Shown piece by piece: positions 16,900 through 29,146 of a stretch of 64,000 bases of DNA. Within the stretch, counting starts at the first letter, position 1. Every line of letters starts with the position of its first letter. The position numbers and the translations under genes were made by a program. The stretch spans positions 713,468 through 777,467 of the forward strand of contig NZ_JADKYW010000005.1 in the NCBI RefSeq assembly GCF_015355785.1. The letters run 5' to 3'. This stretch comes from Arthrobacter gandavensis (lineage in GTDB: Bacteria; Actinomycetota; Actinomycetes; Actinomycetales; Micrococcaceae). The notes under the pieces are model-generated. The model searched no databases. It saw only the letters and a list, made by a program, of their open reading frames with translations, and was not told where the DNA came from.

Positions 16900-16953
16900 A
16901 AAAGCGACGACTAAGGGACCTTACTTTTTATTCCCACAGCCTTGAAGGACGTT

Positions 16954-19062
16954 ATGACCAAGACTGCAGAATCCGAAGCGCCGCCCGCGGCCGTAGAGAA
17001 AACCCGCACGAACAAGGTTGTCTTCACCGGCTCAGCCGTAGGAATCACGGCCATCGCCCTCTGGGCAATGATCTCCACCGAATCCGCCGAGAAAGTCATC
17101 GGGACCATGGTTGGCTGGGTCTCCACCAACATGGGCTGGTACTACTTCCTCGTTGTGACCATGGTCGTTGTCTTTGTCCTGGTCATCGCCCTTTCCAACA
17201 TCGGCAGGACCAAGCTCGGACCAGATCATTCCAAGCCGCAGTTCGGCCTGTTCACCTGGGGAGCCATGCTGTTTGCTGCGGGCATCGGCATCGACCTGAT
17301 GTTCTTCTCGGTCTCCGAGCCGGTTACCCAGTACCTTGCCCCTCCCTCAGGTGACGGCTCCACCGCAGAAGCCGCACGCCAGGCCCTGGTGTGGACGCTG
17401 TTCCACTACGGCATCACCGGCTGGGCGCTCTATGCGCTCATGGGCCTGGCACTGGGCTACTTCGCCTACCGCCACAACCTCCCGCTGAGCATACGTTCAG
17501 CGCTTTATCCAATTTTCGGCAGGAAGATCGACGGACCGCTGGGCCATGGCGTGGACATCGCCGCCCTGCTGGGTACCATCTTCGGCATCGCCACGTCGCT
17601 GGGCATCGGCGTCGTCCAGTTGAACTATGGCCTGAGCTTCATGTTCGGCCTGCCCGAGAACCTCACCGTGCAGATCGCGCTCATTGCCCTGTCAGTGCTC
17701 ATGGCAACTGTTTCAGTAGTCTCCGGCGTGGAGAAGGGCATCCGCCGGCTCTCCGAACTCAACGTCATCCTGGCTCTGGGCCTGATGCTCTTCATCCTCA
17801 TCGCGGGCAAGACGAGCTTCCTGTTCGACGGCATCGTCCAGAACATCGGCGACGTGCTCAGCCGTTTCCCGGCGATGACCCTCGACACCATGGCCTATGA
17901 CCGCCCCGATGAATGGCTCTCTGCCTGGACGCTGTTCTTCTGGGCCTGGTGGATCGCCTGGGCACCGTTCGTAGGCCTGTTCCTCGCCCGCATCTCCCGC
18001 GGCCGCACCATCCGCCAGTTCGTGCTCGGTGTCATGATCGTGCCGTTCGCCTTCATCCTGCTGTGGATCTCCATCTTCGGCAACAGCGCCCTGGAACTGG
18101 TCATGGGCGGCAACGCCGCGTTTGGCGAAGTGGCAATGAACCAGCCGGAGCGAGCCTTCTACGGCCTGCTGGAGCAGTTCCCCTGGCTGCCGGCCACCGC
18201 GGCGATCGCCACCTTCACCGGTCTGCTGTTCTACGTAACTTCGGCAGACTCCGGTGCCCTGGTAATGGCCAACTTCACCTCCCACCTGAAGGACGCCGAT
18301 TCGGATGCCCCGAAGTGGATGCGCGTCTTCTGGGCCGTCATCACCGGCCTGCTAACCCTGGCCATGCTGATGGTAGGCGGTGTGACCACACTGCAGAACG
18401 CCACGATCATCATGGGGCTCCCGCTCTCCATCCTGCTGCTGTTCATCATGCTCGGTGTCTACAAGGCGCTGCGGGTTGAGCATTCCCTGGCCGCAAGCTT
18501 CCGGGCATCCCTGCCGAGCATGATCGCCGGCCGCAGCCCGGACCCGCGCGGCGGACGCACCTGGCGCCAGCGGCTGACCCGGGCCATGTCCTATCCCGGC
18601 CGCAGGCAGGCAGCCCGCTTCGTGGAAGTCGTGGCCTGCCCCGCCCTGGCCGAAGTCCACGACGAACTCGAGTCCAAGGGAGCCGAAGTCTCCCTCAGCC
18701 AGACCGAGGCGGGGAACGGAATCCTGACAGCGGACCTGACTGTCGGACTGGGCGATGAACGCCCCTTCAAGTACCAGGTCTATCCAGTGGAGTATGAGAC
18801 GCCCTCCTACGCCCTGCGCAGCGCCTCCGCTGAGACGAAGTACTTCCGCATGGAGGTGTTCTCACTGGAGGGCAGCCACGGCTACGACGTCATGGGCTAC
18901 ACCAAGGACCAGCTCATTACCGACGTCCTGGACCACTACGAACGCCACCTCGAATTCCTGCACCTCAACCGTGAGGCGCCGGGAAACACTGCAATCACCG
19001 AAGACCCCGTTGTCAAGGACAACTGGGACGCCGACTTTGTCGGCGAGGAGGAGAAACGATGA
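16954..19062 (+). CDS. betT: BCCT-family choline/betaine transporter
   Basis: 702 residues with about 12 predicted membrane helices (roughly 30-530) and the BCCT tryptophan-rich segment FFWAWWIAWAPFVGLFLARIS, which forms the betaine-type binding site. A cytoplasmic C-terminal domain of some 170 residues resembles that of BetT-type choline carriers, where it senses osmotic stress. ATG 16954 is preferred over the upstream TTG because AAGGA lies 4-5 bases before it. The stop overlaps betB (ATGA). The two next genes oxidise choline, so choline is the likely substrate, imported with H+ or Na+. Confidence 0.9.
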   Translation: MTKTAESEAPPAAVEKTRTNKVVFTGSAVGITAIALWAMISTESAEKVIGTMVGWVSTNMGWYYFLVVTMVVVFVLVIALSNIGRTKLGPDHSKPQFGLFTWGAMLFAAGIGIDLMFFSVSEPVTQYLAPPSGDGSTAEAARQALVWTLFHYGITGWALYALMGLALGYFAYRHNLPLSIRSALYPIFGRKIDGPLGHGVDIAALLGTIFGIATSLGIGVVQLNYGLSFMFGLPENLTVQIALIALSVLMATVSVVSGVEKGIRRLSELNVILALGLMLFILIAGKTSFLFDGIVQNIGDVLSRFPAMTLDTMAYDRPDEWLSAWTLFFWAWWIAWAPFVGLFLARISRGRTIRQFVLGVMIVPFAFILLWISIFGNSALELVMGGNAAFGEVAMNQPERAFYGLLEQFPWLPATAAIATFTGLLFYVTSADSGALVMANFTSHLKDADSDAPKWMRVFWAVITGLLTLAMLMVGGVTTLQNATIIMGLPLSILLLFIMLGVYKALRVEHSLAASFRASLPSMIAGRSPDPRGGRTWRQRLTRAMSYPGRRQAARFVEVVACPALAEVHDELESKGAEVSLSQTEAGNGILTADLTVGLGDERPFKYQVYPVEYETPSYALRSASAETKYFRMEVFSLEGSHGYDVMGYTKDQLITDVLDHYERHLEFLHLNREAPGNTAITEDPVVKDNWDADFVGEEEKR

Positions 19063-20549
19063 GTACGCCCGCAACCCTTTTCATCGACGGAGCCTGGGTA
19101 CCCGCATCAGACGGAGGCACCCGTGAAATCCGCAACCCCGCCGACGGCGAGCTGGTCGCCGTCGTATCCGAGGCGACGGCGCAGGACGCCGTAAAGGCCA
19201 TTGCCGCTGCCCGGTCCGCGTTCGACCGCGGCGAATGGGCTTCCGTTCCCGCCCCCGAGCGCGGAAACTTCCTGCTCCGGGTCGCTGCGGAGCTCGAGGC
19301 CCGCAAGGCCGACTTCGCCCGGGCCGAGACGCTGGACACCGGGAAGCGGCTGGTCGAGAGCGAAATCGACATGGACGATATCGCTGCGTGCTTCACCTAC
19401 TTCGGGAAGATCGCCGGCCAGAACGCAGGCCGGATCGTGGATGCTGGAAACCCCGACGTCGTCTCCCGCATCGAGTACGAGCCCGTTGGCGTGTGCGGGC
19501 TGATCGCTCCGTGGAACTACCCGCTGCTGCAGGCCGCCTGGAAGATCGCTCCGGCCCTGGCTGCCGGCTGCAGCTTCGTGCTCAAGCCCTCGGAGCTGAC
19601 GCCGTCCACATCCATCCTGATGATGAAGGTCCTTGAGGATCTGGGCCTGCCGCGCGGCACGGCCAACCTGGTGCTCGGCGCCGGCGCCGTGGCGGGTGCG
19701 CCGCTGGCCGAGTCGCCCGACGTCGATTTGGTTTCCTTCACCGGCGGCGTTGCCACCGGCAAGACCATTGCCGCCGCGGCGGCGGGAACGGTCAAGAAGG
19801 TTGCGCTCGAACTCGGCGGCAAGAACCCCAACGTGGTCTTTGCCGACGCCGATTTCGACGCCGCCCTGGACAATGCCCTGAACGCCGCCTTCGTCCACTC
19901 GGGACAGGTGTGCTCCGCCGGTGCCCGCCTGATCGTCGAAGAGCCCATTGCCGAACGCTTCATCGCCGAGCTGGTCCGCCGCGCCGAGCAGATCCGCATG
20001 GGCGGTCCGTTCGATGAAAACGCGGAAACCGGTCCGCTGATTTCCGAGGCGCACCGGAACAAGGTCACCGCCTACGTGAAAAAGGCCGAAGAAGAAGGCG
20101 CCCGAATCCGCTGCGGCGGCACCTGGGGAACCGGTGAGCTTGAAAAGGGCTACTACTACGCTCCCACCATCCTGGACAACGTCCAGCGCGGCAGCTCCGC
20201 TCTCCTGGATGAGGCCTTTGGCCCAGTGGTCACGGTGGAGACCTTCAACGGCGAAGACGAGGCCGTTGAACTCGCCAATGACACCTCCTACGGCCTGGCC
20301 GGTGCGGTCTGGTCAGCCGACGCCGGCAGGACCCAGCGGGTTGCCCGCCGCCTGCGCCACGGCACCATCTGGATCAACGACTTCCATCCCTACCTGCCGC
20401 AGGCCGAATGGGGCGGCTTCGGCATCTCCGGCGTCGGGCGGGAGCTCGGCCCCACCGGCCTCGGTGAGTACCAGGAAGCAAAGCATATCTACCAGAACAT
20501 CAATCCCCAGGTGACCGGCTGGTTCACCGATCACGGAAAGGTCAACTAG
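19059..20549 (+). CDS. betB: Betaine aldehyde dehydrogenase
   Basis: 496-residue NAD(P)-dependent aldehyde dehydrogenase. The general base is E251 in LELGGKNP and the nucleophile is C285 in HSGQVCSAG; the NAD motif FTGGVATG precedes them. Oxidises betaine aldehyde to glycine betaine, an osmoprotectant; the assignment rests on its place between a BCCT carrier and a GMC choline oxidoreductase. A strong GGAGGAG lies before the ATG, which overlaps the betT stop. Confidence 0.92.
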   Translation: MSTPATLFIDGAWVPASDGGTREIRNPADGELVAVVSEATAQDAVKAIAAARSAFDRGEWASVPAPERGNFLLRVAAELEARKADFARAETLDTGKRLVESEIDMDDIAACFTYFGKIAGQNAGRIVDAGNPDVVSRIEYEPVGVCGLIAPWNYPLLQAAWKIAPALAAGCSFVLKPSELTPSTSILMMKVLEDLGLPRGTANLVLGAGAVAGAPLAESPDVDLVSFTGGVATGKTIAAAAAGTVKKVALELGGKNPNVVFADADFDAALDNALNAAFVHSGQVCSAGARLIVEEPIAERFIAELVRRAEQIRMGGPFDENAETGPLISEAHRNKVTAYVKKAEEEGARIRCGGTWGTGELEKGYYYAPTILDNVQRGSSALLDEAFGPVVTVETFNGEDEAVELANDTSYGLAGAVWSADAGRTQRVARRLRHGTIWINDFHPYLPQAEWGGFGISGVGRELGPTGLGEYQEAKHIYQNINPQVTGWFTDHGKVN

Positions 20550-20554
20550 GTTCC

Positions 20555-22168
20555 ATGACTGATCTGCAGAACACCGAATTCGACTACATCGTCATCGGCG
20601 GAGGATCCGCCGGGGCGGCAGTCGCCTCCCGGCTCAGCGAGGACCCGTCCGTCGAGGTCGCCCTGGTAGAGGCCGGCCCGGATGACCGCGGACTGGAGGA
20701 GATCCTGCAGCTGGACCGCTGGATGGAACTGCTCGAATCCGGGTACGACTGGGACTACCCGATCGAGCCCCAGGAGAACGGCAACTCCTTCATGCGCCAC
20801 GCCCGTGCCAAGGTCATGGGCGGCTGCTCCAGCCACAACTCCTGCATCGCCTTCTGGGCACCCCGCGAGGACATTGACGAGTGGGAAACCAGGTTCGGCG
20901 CCGAAGGCTGGAACTCGAACATGGCTTTCCGCCTGTTCAAGCAGCTGGAAAAGAACGAGGACGCCGGGCCGGACGCTCCGCACCACGGGGACAGCGGCCC
21001 GGTGCACCTGATGAACATTCCGCCGAGCGACCCCTGCGGCGTGGCACTGCTGGATGCCTGCGAACGGGCCGGCATTCCCCGCGTGAAGTTCAATACCGGA
21101 GACACCGTCATCAACGGCGCGAACTTCTTCCAGATCAACCGCCGCGCGGACGGCACCCGTTCGTCGTCGTCGGTCTCCTACGTCCACCCGGTCATGGACC
21201 GGCCCAACTTCACGCTGCTGACGGACCTGCGCGCCCGCGAGCTGAAGTTCGACGAAAACAACCGCTGCACCGGCGTCGACGTGGTGGACGGGCAGTTTGC
21301 CCGCACCCACGCCCTCAACGCCCGCACGGAGGTCATCCTCTCCGCCGGCGCCATCGATTCCCCCAAGCTGCTCATGCTTTCCGGCATCGGCCCAGCTGCG
21401 CACCTGGCCGAGCATGGCATCGATGTGCGCGTGGACTCCGCCGGTGTCGGCGAAAACCTGCAGGACCACCCTGAGGGCGTCATCCAGTGGGAAGCCAGGC
21501 AGCCCATGCCCGAGTCCTCAACACAGTGGTGGGAAATCGGCATCTTCACGCCCACCGAGGAAGGCCTGGACCGTCCGGACCTGATGTTCCACTACGGTTC
21601 GGTACCCTTCGACATGCACACGCTGCGCCAGGGCTACCCCACCACGGAGAACGGTTTCTGCCTGACCCCGAACGTCACCCACGCCCGCTCCCGCGGCACG
21701 GTGCGCCTGCGCAGCCGGGACTTCCGTGACAAGCCCATGGTGGATCCGCGGTACTTCACCGATCCGCATGACATGCGGGTGATGGTCTACGGGATCAAGA
21801 AGGCCCGGGAGATCGTGGCCTCCCCGGCCATGGCGGAGTGGGCCGGCCGGGAACTCTACCCCGGACCGGACGTGCAGACGGACGAGGAAATCACCGAGTA
21901 CATCAAGAAGACCCACAACACCGTCTACCACCCGGCCGGCACCGTCCGGATGGGAGCGCCCGACGACGCATCGTCGCCGCTTGACCCGCAGCTGCGGGTC
22001 AAGGGCGTCACCGGCCTGCGCGTCGCGGACGCCTCGGTCATGCCGGAGCTGACCACGGTAAACCCGAACATCACCACCATGATGATTGGCGAGCGCTGCG
22101 CCGAACTGGTCCGCGAGGCCCGCAGCGGATCTGTTGGTGCCGCGGCTGCCGGCGCCTCCGCCGGCTAG
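20555..22168 (+). CDS. betA: Choline dehydrogenase (GMC oxidoreductase)
   Basis: 537-residue FAD enzyme. The N-terminal dinucleotide fold reads DYIVIGGGSAGAAVASRL; the GMC signature NARTEVILSAGAIDSPKLL lies near residue 260; the catalytic histidine is in HPAGTVRMG, followed by VNPNITTMMIGERCAEL at the end. It should oxidise choline to betaine aldehyde, which BetB takes further. It starts 5 bases after betB with only a weak ribosome site, so expression probably depends on coupling. A T-rich terminator follows. Other alcohols cannot be excluded as substrates. Confidence 0.88.
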   Translation: MTDLQNTEFDYIVIGGGSAGAAVASRLSEDPSVEVALVEAGPDDRGLEEILQLDRWMELLESGYDWDYPIEPQENGNSFMRHARAKVMGGCSSHNSCIAFWAPREDIDEWETRFGAEGWNSNMAFRLFKQLEKNEDAGPDAPHHGDSGPVHLMNIPPSDPCGVALLDACERAGIPRVKFNTGDTVINGANFFQINRRADGTRSSSSVSYVHPVMDRPNFTLLTDLRARELKFDENNRCTGVDVVDGQFARTHALNARTEVILSAGAIDSPKLLMLSGIGPAAHLAEHGIDVRVDSAGVGENLQDHPEGVIQWEARQPMPESSTQWWEIGIFTPTEEGLDRPDLMFHYGSVPFDMHTLRQGYPTTENGFCLTPNVTHARSRGTVRLRSRDFRDKPMVDPRYFTDPHDMRVMVYGIKKAREIVASPAMAEWAGRELYPGPDVQTDEEITEYIKKTHNTVYHPAGTVRMGAPDDASSPLDPQLRVKGVTGLRVADASVMPELTTVNPNITTMMIGERCAELVREARSGSVGAAAAGASAG

Positions 22169-24251: not shown

Positions 24252-26018
24252 ATGGGGAAGAACCGCCTGCTGGCTGCCGTTGCAGCTTTCTCACTCCTGG
24301 GCCCCGCACTGGCCGGATGTTCTCCTGAAGAACGCCCGGGTCCGGAGCAGTCCGCCGCCGCGCTGGCGGAGGGCCTGTCCCGTCTGGACGTCACCGGAAA
24401 CGAGTTTGCAGGGTCCACCGTCGAGGCGGTGAACGGGATGCTTGAGTACGAAGTCTCCGGCATGAACATCACCCCTTCCGTAACGGTCGCCGGGATCGAC
24501 GAGGTCTCCTCCAACGAGGCCGTAGCCACGCTGAAGTATGTCTGGGACGTCAACGCATCGCCGGATGATTTCAGCTACGAGACCACGGTGACGCTGGAAC
24601 GCGGCCCGGGCAGCAGGTGGCAGACCCGTTTCCGGTCCACCACCGTGCATCCGGATCTGCTCCCCGGACAGCGGCTGGTCCGCAAGGCCAGCCCGCCGCC
24701 GCGCGCGGACATACTTGGAGCCGGCGGCTCCGTGCTGATGCGGCACTGGCCCGTGTGGCGCGTGGGCCTGGATAAGTCAGTGCTGGGCGCACACGAGTAC
24801 GCATCCTCCGTCTTTTACCTTTCGCTCTATCTGGGGCTGGACGCGGACGCGCTTGCCGAGAAGGTGCAGGCAGCCGCCCCGGACGCGTTCATCGAGGCCG
24901 TCACCGTGCGGCAGGACAAGGTATCACCGGCGTTCGAAACCGACATCGCCACCATTCCGGGCGCTGCGGCCCTGCCGGAGAGGCAGGTGCTTGCCCCAAG
25001 TCCCGGTTTCGCGGCTGAACTGCTGGGAAGTGTGGGACCGGCAACCGAGGAGATGGCCGCTGACGGCCCGCTTGCGCCCGGGGACCTGGCCGGAATCTCG
25101 GGGCTCCAGCGCGAATACGATTCCCTGCTGCGTGGTTCAGACGCCGTAACTGTTCGCATCCTGAACGCGGACAACACCGCGTCAGCTCCGCTCTTTGAAG
25201 CTCCCTCGGAACCCGGCGAAGCACTGGAGACCACCCTCGACCTGGGGATCCAGTCCCGCGCTGACGCCGTGCTGGCTGATTCCCCCGGCGCCTCGCTCGT
25301 GGCACTCCAGCCTTCTACCGGCAATCTCCTGGCCGCCGGCGGCGGTCCCGGGACGGACGGGACGCAGACGGCTCTCCGGGCCGAGTTTTCGCTTGACACC
25401 GGCTTCGAGCCCGCCGATGCCCTGGCCCGGCTGCGTGCCGGAGGCTCGGATGCCGCCGATGATGCGGCGCTCGGTGCTGCCGCGGAAGCCCTGGGCCTGG
25501 GCGTCGCCTCCGGACTTGGAACAGAGGCCTTCTATGGAGCAGTGACGGAAGGCTCCGATGGAACTCAGCAGGCCGAAGCCGCAGGCGCCGGAGACCAGGT
25601 GCTGGCATCACCACTCGCCGCAGCAGTTGCTGCGGCAACCGTTGCCAGGGGCGAACGGGTTTCACCGGTCCTGGTCCTCAACACTGAGGCACGCGGCGGA
25701 GGCGGAGGCGGCCCGTCGCCGTCGGCCAGCGGTGACGGGCCGCCTGCCCTCAGCCCGGAAGAAGCCGCATCGCTGCGCAGGACGCTGCGCGCAAACGTGG
25801 CCGGGGACAGCGCCGGAGAAACGTTTGGAGCCCTGCAGTCAGTATCCGGTGAACCCGTCCTGGCGGCAGCGGGAACCGCCGGAACCGGAGGAGGAAAGCC
25901 CGGCCATGGCTGGGTAACGGCCATCCAGGGTGACATTGCCGTAGCGGTGTTCGTCCAGGGCAGCAGCGCGGACGCGGCAGCTCTGGCCGCTTCGTTCCTG
26001 GACGGGTCGTCAGGCTAG
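24252..26018 (+). CDS. Catalytically dead PBP-lipo paralogue (pseudo-transpeptidase lipoprotein)
   Basis: 588 residues, alignable with the upstream protein almost throughout: MGKNR start, lipobox LAGC (C23), YVWDVNAS, HPDL, ILGAGG, GLQREYD.LLRG, LVALQPSTGN. The catalytic motifs are gone: STFK aligns without gaps to T383-G-F-E386; a stretch of about 50 residues including the SxN motif is deleted; and KTGT aligns to A539-A-G-T. The frame is intact and the exported fold seems kept, so it is not simply decaying. It may scaffold or regulate its active sister. The stop overlaps the convergent yccF stop. Confidence 0.88.
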   Translation: MGKNRLLAAVAAFSLLGPALAGCSPEERPGPEQSAAALAEGLSRLDVTGNEFAGSTVEAVNGMLEYEVSGMNITPSVTVAGIDEVSSNEAVATLKYVWDVNASPDDFSYETTVTLERGPGSRWQTRFRSTTVHPDLLPGQRLVRKASPPPRADILGAGGSVLMRHWPVWRVGLDKSVLGAHEYASSVFYLSLYLGLDADALAEKVQAAAPDAFIEAVTVRQDKVSPAFETDIATIPGAAALPERQVLAPSPGFAAELLGSVGPATEEMAADGPLAPGDLAGISGLQREYDSLLRGSDAVTVRILNADNTASAPLFEAPSEPGEALETTLDLGIQSRADAVLADSPGASLVALQPSTGNLLAAGGGPGTDGTQTALRAEFSLDTGFEPADALARLRAGGSDAADDAALGAAAEALGLGVASGLGTEAFYGAVTEGSDGTQQAEAAGAGDQVLASPLAAAVAAATVARGERVSPVLVLNTEARGGGGGGPSPSASGDGPPALSPEEAASLRRTLRANVAGDSAGETFGALQSVSGEPVLAAAGTAGTGGGKPGHGWVTAIQGDIAVAVFVQGSSADAAALAASFLDGSSG

Positions 26019-27877: not shown

Positions 27878-29146
27878 ATGGCGAACCTTGGGGGCGGAGA
27901 AACCGGCGAACCATCCGCGGATGAACCCGGCTCCCGGCATTCGGAGGCAGAAGACGACCGGGCCCGGCAAACCCGGCTCCTGGCCGCCGCGCTGGCAGGA
28001 GCCCTATGGGTGGCATCCGGGACACTAGCTTCCGTTCTGGCCGCCCTCCCACAGGCACCGGAACTCACCTGGGTTGTCTTTCCGCGGACTGTCGAGCTCA
28101 GTCCTGGTGCCGGACTATCCGGTCCGCCGCCGGGAGACCATTGGGTGGCTGCCCTCGCGGGGGCCGTCCTGGTGTCCGCACTGACCGTGATGCTGCTGCG
28201 GCGGCTGGCCCGGCGCAGAACGGTGCCGTGGCTTTCCCCGCTTCAGGCCTCGTGGCTGTGCATTATCCTCGCTTCTGCAGCCGGTTCAGGCTCCCTGGGT
28301 CTGCGTGGCCTTCTGGTCGGCTGGCCGCCGGAGCAGCCCGAATTCCTCGTCGGCTCCCTGGTTCCACCCGTGACGGCCGGGATCTACTGGGGTTTCCTGT
28401 GGGGATGGCTGCCTGCGTTGGCCGCAGCCCGCCACGCGAATCCAAGTACTGTGCCCGCCGTGTCCGGCTCCGCGCTTCGCATCGGAGGCCGGTTCTTCGT
28501 CCCCCTGGCCGCTGCAGTGCTGGCAGGCACGGCAGCGTTGGCCTTCCTTCCGTCGTGGCAGCCTCCCGGCCCGCTCGAGGAGCGGGAGTATGTGCCGGAG
28601 GCCGCCGCGCCGCCGGGGCCGCAACCCGTGCAGGACCCGGAGCCCGTGGTGATCGGGGCCCCGGAATTCGGCCACGCGTTTGAAGAGCCCGACCCCGCGT
28701 GGTGCACAGGAGACGAAGTCCGGATGGGCATAGACGGCTTCGACGCGGCACTGGGAAGCAGGGGTGCCCGCATCACGCTGGAAGTGACCGGCAGCCGCAG
28801 CTGTGTTGTGCACGCGTATCCCGACCTGGATTTCAACCGGACCGACGGATGGGTCATGGACATCACGGCTGTCCACGGAGGGTCCATGATGACCACGGAT
28901 ACTGGCCACCAGGACCCGTTCATCATTGAGCCAGGCCAGTTCGCCGAAGCGGGCATCGGCTGGCGCGCTACGGCCGGGGCCGGGATGAGCAGGGTGGGCA
29001 CGCTGCTGGTCGCCCCCTACTCCGGTACCCTCCGCCAGAGCCTGGCAGTGGACTTCGACCTTACGGAACCCGGCTTCCTGACGGTTACTTCCTGGACTCC
29101 CGCCGGCCCCGGCGCACCACCGCCCGGAAGCCTGCCCATTCCCTGA
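27878..29146 (+). CDS. Membrane protein with extracellular DUF4232 domain
   Basis: 422 residues. A charged head (1-30) is followed by five or so predicted membrane helices between about 32 and 225, a Pro/Glu-rich linker (about 230-265), and a C-terminal domain of about 150 residues. That domain has the DUF4232 pattern: C in AWCTGDEV, then VTGSRSCVVHAYPDLDF and IEPGQFAEAGIGWR. DUF4232 domains are exported and of unknown function. The protein was probably anchored with this domain outside. Confidence 0.7.
   Translation: MANLGGGETGEPSADEPGSRHSEAEDDRARQTRLLAAALAGALWVASGTLASVLAALPQAPELTWVVFPRTVELSPGAGLSGPPPGDHWVAALAGAVLVSALTVMLLRRLARRRTVPWLSPLQASWLCIILASAAGSGSLGLRGLLVGWPPEQPEFLVGSLVPPVTAGIYWGFLWGWLPALAAARHANPSTVPAVSGSALRIGGRFFVPLAAAVLAGTAALAFLPSWQPPGPLEEREYVPEAAAPPGPQPVQDPEPVVIGAPEFGHAFEEPDPAWCTGDEVRMGIDGFDAALGSRGARITLEVTGSRSCVVHAYPDLDFNRTDGWVMDITAVHGGSMMTTDTGHQDPFIIEPGQFAEAGIGWRATAGAGMSRVGTLLVAPYSGTLRQSLAVDFDLTEPGFLTVTSWTPAGPGAPPPGSLPIP

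Follow-up and report, generated by a model that had tools for sequence, protein, structure and literature searches.

The 64,000 nucleotides of Arthrobacter gandavensis DNA analysed here (contig NZ_JADKYW010000005.1, positions 713,468 to 777,467; hereafter the window) contain a tandem pair of paralogous genes, an active PBP-lipo-like transpeptidase gene (A) and behind it a paralogue (D) that has lost every catalytic motif (Table 1). Judged by comparison with the corresponding genes in related genomes, D is a true pseudoenzyme that has been conserved and not a decaying gene, as it has neither the broken frames nor the omega near 1 by which pseudogenes are recognised. It probably serves a purpose for which the chemistry of the enzyme is not required.

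Table 1. Features of the A-D pair and its surroundings; positions are those of the window.
Feature	Start	End	Strand	Basis or remark
Putative leaderless -10 box TACTCT of A, 12 to 7 bases before ATG	22235	22240	+	
A, active PBP-lipo-like class B3 transpeptidase, 645 aa predicted lipoprotein	22247	24184	+	Pfam, motifs
STFK of A, residues 388-391	23408	23419	+	
SCN of A, residues 445-447	23579	23587	+	
KTGT of A, residues 588-591	24008	24019	+	
Putative leaderless -10 box TAATCT of D, 12 to 7 bases before ATG	24240	24245	+	
D, catalytically dead PBP-lipo paralogue, 588 aa, open frame	24252	26018	+	
Signal peptide and lipobox (LAGC, Cys23) of D	24252	24320	+	
NTF2-like (MecA_N-like) domain of D, residues 25-135	24324	24656	+	
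Residues 57-63 (VEAVNGM) of D, start of predicted helix 57-67	24420	24440	+	
PBP dimerisation (pedestal) domain of D, residues 136-310	24657	25181	+	Pfam PBP_dimer
Shortened transpeptidase domain of D, residues 320-588	25209	26015	+	Fold still predicted
TGFE of D, residues 383-386, replacing STFK	25398	25409	+	
Approximate site of in-frame loss of ~50 residues including SxN in D	25443	25457	+	Alignment
AAGT of D, residues 539-542, replacing KTGT	25866	25877	+	
yccF-like gene, convergent with D and overlapping its end	26015	26566	-	Pfam YccF

The protein encoded by A, which is named PBP-lipo by its layout, exceeds the Pfam cut-offs for MecA_N, PBP_dimer, and Transpeptidase. In BLASTP, D aligned with it over the whole length with 289 of 652 positions identical (44%, E 1e-152), which bears out the description of D in a first-pass annotation of the window as an open frame with a near full-length match to its neighbour. 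The motif differences noted there were also recovered, with STFK, SCN, and KTGT in A facing TGFE and AAGT in D, and with the approximately 50 residues bearing SxN missing from D. Among the domains that had been described as kept, the lipobox was found and the NTF2-like region was recovered in the structural model, but not by Pfam, whose MecA_N domain was detected in A and in 8 of 13 D proteins and fell below detection in the D of the window. Cys23 of the lipobox, as read by eye, is invariant in all 13 D proteins, which are predicted lipoproteins on this basis. The yccF-like gene stands beside A or the A-D pair in all nine home loci compared (of 29) and is regarded as a neighbour outside the proposed function. 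Directly before A (16942-22168) lie genes of a BCCT transporter, an aldehyde dehydrogenase, and a GMC oxidoreductase (Pfam), which look like a choline-to-betaine set and keep their order in seven of the nine home loci. A 422-aa protein with a C-terminal DUF4232 domain, encoded at 27878-29146, was found in two of them.

The distribution of D was determined in a sample of 29 genomes of the genus, to which the counts given here refer. D is present in 13 and absent from 16 of these genomes, and the same gene occurs in A. koreensis DSM 16760 (83% identity), A. citreus DSM 20133 (76%), and Arthrobacter sp. ATA002 (72%). Tandem placement is not universal: D follows A in eight genomes, and in the other five (G001, G006, G010, G013, and G021) it is located on a different contig or at a distance from A of at least about 1 Mb. 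Maximum-likelihood analysis of 45 proteins united the 13 D sequences in one clade (support 100/99), to which the A copies of the eight tandem genomes were nearest (96/93) within a node supported at 100/100. The position of the D clade beside these eight A copies places the duplication in the ancestor of the eight genomes, which make up the A. koreensis/A. citreus clade. All eight have retained the A-D arrangement, and the pair is thus conserved in this founding clade, as the first-pass annotation had expected of a functional gene.

Active copies of A carry STFK in 28 genomes and STLK in one. At the aligned place in D, the catalytic Lys of SxxK is found in none of the 13 proteins, with the first Ser left in eight (for example SAFQ or SMFE). 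The SxN motif is deleted in ten and reads SCD or SCS in three (G005, G024, and G017), and a few SxN triplets occur elsewhere in D, off the aligned place. No D has K[T/S]G[T/S]; three read KNGA or KNGT, and the others AAGT, LAGT, AEGT, or a gap followed by GT, the AAGT of G013 being read in its second frame, behind the break. The full-length D proteins of G005, G024, and G017 combine SAFQ or AAFQ with SCD or SCS and KNGA or KNGT, and at the first motif the ten proteins with a deleted SxN region show SSFL, RSFL, STF-gap, SAFT, SMFE, TGFQ, or TGFE. Comparison of these remains therefore indicates that the loss of Lys is common to all D and that the shortening is confined to one branch. According to tree and alignment, then, D arose by one tandem duplication and lost the Lys before the D lineages split.

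Repeated independent deaths of PBP-lipo copies within the genus were rejected, as D formed one clade in 100% of 200 bootstrap trees. A lone decaying duplicate with frameshifts, which the first-pass annotation had put forward as the outcome that would speak against a function, is likewise rejected by the occurrence of D in 13 of 29 genomes, its single clade, and its low omega; 12 of the 13 frames are intact. The one frameshifted copy, in G013, is broken near the C-terminus. This assembly is 94% complete and also has splits in nei and pepN nearby, for which reason the frameshift is read as a probable sequencing error. Outside the genus, a search of 395 genomes of the family (E 1e-70) gave single matches confined to one genus, with 40-42% identity and about as strong as A genes. 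In a family search with A (129 genomes), two separate full-length or near-full-length PBP-lipo relatives were observed each in G085 (contigs 24 and 11) and in G170 (contigs 93 and 18). Contig 1 of G075, a genome of another genus of the family, contains at 523420-523731 a PBP-lipo fragment (63% identity, residues 417-519) that lies approximately 1.4 kb downstream of the complete gene and may be a decaying tandem duplicate of separate origin.

Selection on D was assessed by pairwise GY94 estimates of omega for nine of the 78 possible D pairs and the matching A pairs. A fifth pair of the tandem clade (G000-G016) was saturated, and the ranges given are those of the four unsaturated pairs. Whole-gene omega in these pairs was 0.113, 0.145, 0.115, and 0.077 for D and 0.067, 0.092, 0.065, and 0.082 for A, and omega = 1 was rejected for D in all four (2dlnL 223-392), so that the purifying selection anticipated for the pair was found in the founding clade at D omega values of 0.077-0.145. 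By domain, omega of D and A was 0.043-0.106 versus 0.078-0.162 in the NTF2-like domain, 0.040-0.071 versus 0.058-0.098 in the dimerisation domain, and 0.112-0.316 versus 0.055-0.082 in the transpeptidase domain. Since dS is noisy in short domains, dN was compared alongside omega. The D/A ratio of dN was 0.85, 1.14, 1.46, and 0.51 for the NTF2-like domain, 1.10, 2.47, 2.78, and 0.71 for the dimerisation domain (where low omega goes with high dS in two pairs), and 2.39, 2.34, 3.60, and 2.47 for the transpeptidase domain. Invariant positions in the 13 D compared with the 8 tandem-clade A numbered 48 versus 49 of 111, 61 versus 95 of 175, and 55 versus 167 of 269 in the three domains, respectively. 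Together, dN and invariant sites thus indicate that constraint matches that of A in the NTF2-like domain, falls short of it in the dimerisation domain, and is weakest in the transpeptidase domain. This gradient contradicts a relaxation across the whole gene, the second outcome that had been named as speaking for decay, but it also corrects the statement that the loss is limited to the catalytic parts, because the transpeptidase domain is relaxed two- to fourfold throughout and the dimerisation domain partly. At nine positions D has a residue that never varies among its copies but is rare in A; four of these residues (V57, A59, G62, and M63) open the predicted helix at residues 57-67.

The copies located away from A, which seem to have been transferred between species (see below), differ in this respect. 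Among recipients omega of D was 0.28-0.35 versus 0.063-0.110 in A (2dlnL 22-51 in the four recipient pairs among the nine), and either the constraint is therefore weaker there or the copies are young. When neutral evolution was simulated with substitutions only, at divergences of 0.05, 0.1, 0.2, 0.4, and 0.8 substitutions per site, 80, 20, 3, 0, and 0 of 400 copies, respectively, remained open. This argues strongly against drift for the founding clade and weakly against it for the young transferred copies. A competing explanation on this evidence is that D is a slowly decaying duplicate, in which the transpeptidase is going and the remainder is held because a misfolded lipoprotein would be harmful. 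We consider this unlikely. The relaxed transpeptidase domain, the motif remains that differ by lineage, the frameshift in 1 of 13 copies, and the omega of about 0.3 among transferred copies all fit such a process, and the 20 and 3 neutral copies still open at 0.1 and 0.2 make drift possible at the dS of the latter; however, decay does not sit well with retention in the whole founding clade, an NTF2-like domain conserved as in A, a promoter motif kept before all 13 copies, and the absence of any open frame in the simulations at 0.4 or 0.8, and the frameshift itself comes from the assembly with other split genes.

The overall class B3 fold is still predicted for D. AlphaFold2 gave a model with a mean pLDDT of 82 and a pTM of 0.75 (38 sequences, D and A rows together), compared with 88 and 0.81 for A (35 sequences), and most of the NTF2-like region of the window D had a pLDDT above 90. 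Pfam PBP_dimer was present in all 13 D proteins and Transpeptidase was matched by ten at E up to 0.001 and by three not at all, the match of the window D being partial and barely over the cut-off (22.9 versus 22.1 bits). The best Foldseek matches of the D model were B. subtilis PBP3 (7bn9; E 1.2e-28, TM 0.62 by query), E. faecium PBP5 (6g0k; TM 0.70), and S. aureus PBP2a, all of them class B3 low-affinity PBPs, and the top matches of a profile search with D and A together agreed on this class. In the fold comparison with VIA-align, residues before approximately 139 were barely covered. As far as the model and these matches indicate, D is a class B3 PBP by descent, with domain order, overall fold, and transpeptidase core retained. 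PBP3, PBP5, and PBP2a share this domain order and fold with D, but they are active transpeptidases, whereas D is without the three motifs and about 50 transpeptidase residues.

A retained fold could also mean that D acts as a sensor or sink through non-reactive binding of muropeptides, glycan strands, or beta-lactams, which we regard as improbable. The transpeptidase core is still predicted, and one of the structural matches is a PBP2a (3zg5) whose allosteric site is occupied by a peptidoglycan analogue, so that a ligand-binding pedestal is plausible. On the other hand, the Lys of SxxK is missing from all 13 proteins and SxN is deleted in ten and altered in three, the transpeptidase domain is the least conserved part, and Pfam named no signalling domain in the D of the window. 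Covalent binding of beta-lactams depends on the chemistry of SxxK enzymes, and with the transpeptidase reaction this binding should therefore have been lost as well; covalent beta-lactam binding by D is thus unlikely. The beta-lactam sensor or decoy suggested in the first-pass annotation is weakened accordingly by the lack of the catalytic Lys in every D.

Both genes appear to carry their own promoters. The sequence TANNNT occupies exactly positions -12 to -7 before all 13 D and before 28 of 29 A, the true start of the 29th (G004) not having been located; it is present there in none of four relatives from other genera (some of whose starts are uncertain), and its background frequency in eight of these loci is 0.0017 per position. 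The box of D was kept although much of the A-D spacer has diverged. TANNNT at this place is a mark of leaderless actinobacterial genes according to PMC3160421, and D therefore seems to have its own transcription start, retained after its move to other sites, under a putative leaderless promoter. As A and D are both apparently leaderless (41 of 42 genes), the pair is probably not a simple operon.

All five non-tandem copies of D are inserted at the same place, 3' of tRNA-Gly(TCC), which together with tig and tRNA-Pro flanks the insert at one end; the gene at the other end encodes a nei-type glycosylase (tig and nei being names from Pfam domains). Of the 24 genomes that lack D at this site, 22, including all eight tandem genomes, have tig and nei next to each other; the two exceptions, G003 and G004, hold other DNA there. 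The stretch between tRNA-Gly(TCC) and nei is an insertion hotspot (L026 8160-8427; L032 5388-7804; L094 3873-5723; L093 3934-5680), which contains an HNH endonuclease gene in G004, approximately 1.7 kb without a clear gene in G003, and in G013, besides D, an HNH/DUF222 gene and a FUR-like gene between D and nei. The A copies of the five recipient genomes sit in another clade, and their D nest within the tandem D, where they adjoin those of G000, G025, and G022. In G013, D is preceded by the 3'-terminal part of an A gene together with the A-D spacer, with 80% identity over 201 bases to G022 and 86% over 133 bases to G025; this A remnant is just 71-76% identical to the own A genes of the five genomes. 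Shorter remains of A precede D in G006 and G010 and scarcely anything beyond the spacer in G001 and G021, and the insert in these four genomes comprises little beyond D and its leader. By eye, approximately 25 bases behind the recipient D are similar to the terminal part of yccF, the gene convergent with D in the tandem loci. With an A tail, the A-D spacer, and a yccF-like end flanking D, the segment was therefore cut from a tandem locus. An origin of the recipient D as a jump of the resident A was rejected, since these copies nest among the tandem D and the A remnant is closer to G025 and G022.

Silent sites were compared in six pairs of four recipient species, with G013 left out. Recipient D had a dS of 0.10-0.20, compared with 0.37-1.93 for A, 0.46-1.22 for pepN, 0.56-1.14 for clpX, 0.47-1.02 for valS, 0.66 to saturation for nei, 0.25-0.77 for clpP2, and 0.21-0.53 for tig in the same pairs; for G001-G021 the tig value (0.21) is little over that of D (0.16). 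Slow silent change in D is an unlikely reason, because in three pairs of the tandem clade the dS of D (0.84, 0.98, and 1.23) was at least that of A (0.85, 0.77, and 0.77) within 0.01. The entry of D, or a sweep, was thus later than the split of the species. The branching order of D among the recipients is weakly supported and partly like that of A, and a single older entry would give the same order. From these comparisons, related species seem to have gained D by gene transfer.

No second copy of the tRNA end was found at the five loci and no direct repeat at the two loci tested (G001 and G021), and site-specific integration into tRNA-Gly was rejected for these reasons; of the neighbouring genes that were searched, none was named as an integrase or transposase. 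Carriage of D on plasmids was also rejected, the search having given no close match and just two distant ones of 33-35%. That D is a passenger of mobile DNA at the tRNA site, without a cell-wall role in the recipients, has little probability: the shared position of the five copies between tig and nei and the other genes and DNA found in the same stretch in G004, G013, and G003 would agree with it, but the lack of named integrases or transposases and of direct repeats, the inserts that hardly extend beyond D and its leader, and the fact that D of the founding clade has remained behind A do not. The A proteins of the recipient species and of the tandem clade are 57-62% identical. D thus moved into species with a rather different A and is independent of adjacency to it, and if it needs A at all, it tolerates a distant one. 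The target of D may be something more conserved than A.

The reading we prefer, although held tentatively and somewhat short of an even chance, is that D is a pseudoenzyme kept for what its membrane-proximal half binds, and that it docks on the partners of PBP-lipo and sets the level of cross-linking. Its target would probably be the cell-wall machinery, that is, PBP-lipo or its partners. The lipid anchor would place D at the membrane, where the NTF2-like domain above all, together with the dimerisation domain, would do the binding. D could thereby occupy the surface at which active PBP-lipo docks on its partners. Such a partner might be a SEDS polymerase or divisome protein, the glycan strand, or even PBP-lipo, and D might adjust in this way the amount or place of cross-linking by PBP-lipo. 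Class B PBPs activate SEDS polymerases through their pedestal. As described in PMC5656894, PBP2B of B. subtilis continues to support divisome assembly when it is inactive, and for both reasons we propose that D docks where PBP-lipo does and tunes it. The same source reports no significant effect of inactive PBP3 (class B3) as a competitor in B. subtilis, and PMC9170245 reports that inactive M. abscessus PBP-lipo (S364A) does not complement, from which it follows that the non-catalytic half alone may do little. Its absence from 16 of 29 genomes also makes D dispensable in general. The candidate roles listed in the first-pass annotation are hence narrowed and not settled on one.

There is a small chance that the effect of D goes further, and that it dominates or shields its active cousin, acts on the PBP-lipo pathway of other species, and has spread as a useful, near-minimal cassette. 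Such a cassette would consist of the gene and its leaderless promoter and could be of benefit, for example, against beta-lactams, bacteriocins, or phages that target division PBPs. A related idea, that D is a decoy shielding PBP-lipo from a hostile binder outside the active site, such as a bacteriocin, phage factor, or toxin of a competitor, would explain the spread between species, which was recent among four of them (dS 0.10-0.20 versus 0.21 to saturation in seven other genes), as well as the retention of the N-terminal half with catalysis lost, but it is very unlikely given that slow N-terminal evolution is equally expected of a scaffold, that D and A share just 44% overall identity, and that we know of no hostile agent of this kind here.

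D can be set against known systems. PBP-lipo of M. abscessus (MAB_3167c) is a predicted class B lipoprotein with the lipobox Cys at position 23, a layout that A shares, and it requires its active-site serine, as described in PMC9170245, whereas D is without an active site. B. subtilis PBP2B S309A and C. difficile SpoVD S311A are class B PBPs that function without catalysis (PMC5656894 and PMC12713402); these are engineered point mutants, whereas D is a natural, old, and separate gene beside an intact active copy. A natural dead PBP-lipo was not reported among the papers listed in searches of the open-access literature, where absence is weak evidence. Non-catalytic action of class B PBPs is thus already known from engineered mutants. 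D would add a system for learning what the non-catalytic half of these proteins, including that of the MRSA protein PBP2a, binds and controls without cross-linking. Since intermediates have survived, first of full length with the motifs lost and then shortened, the route from enzyme to pseudoenzyme can be read in this family.
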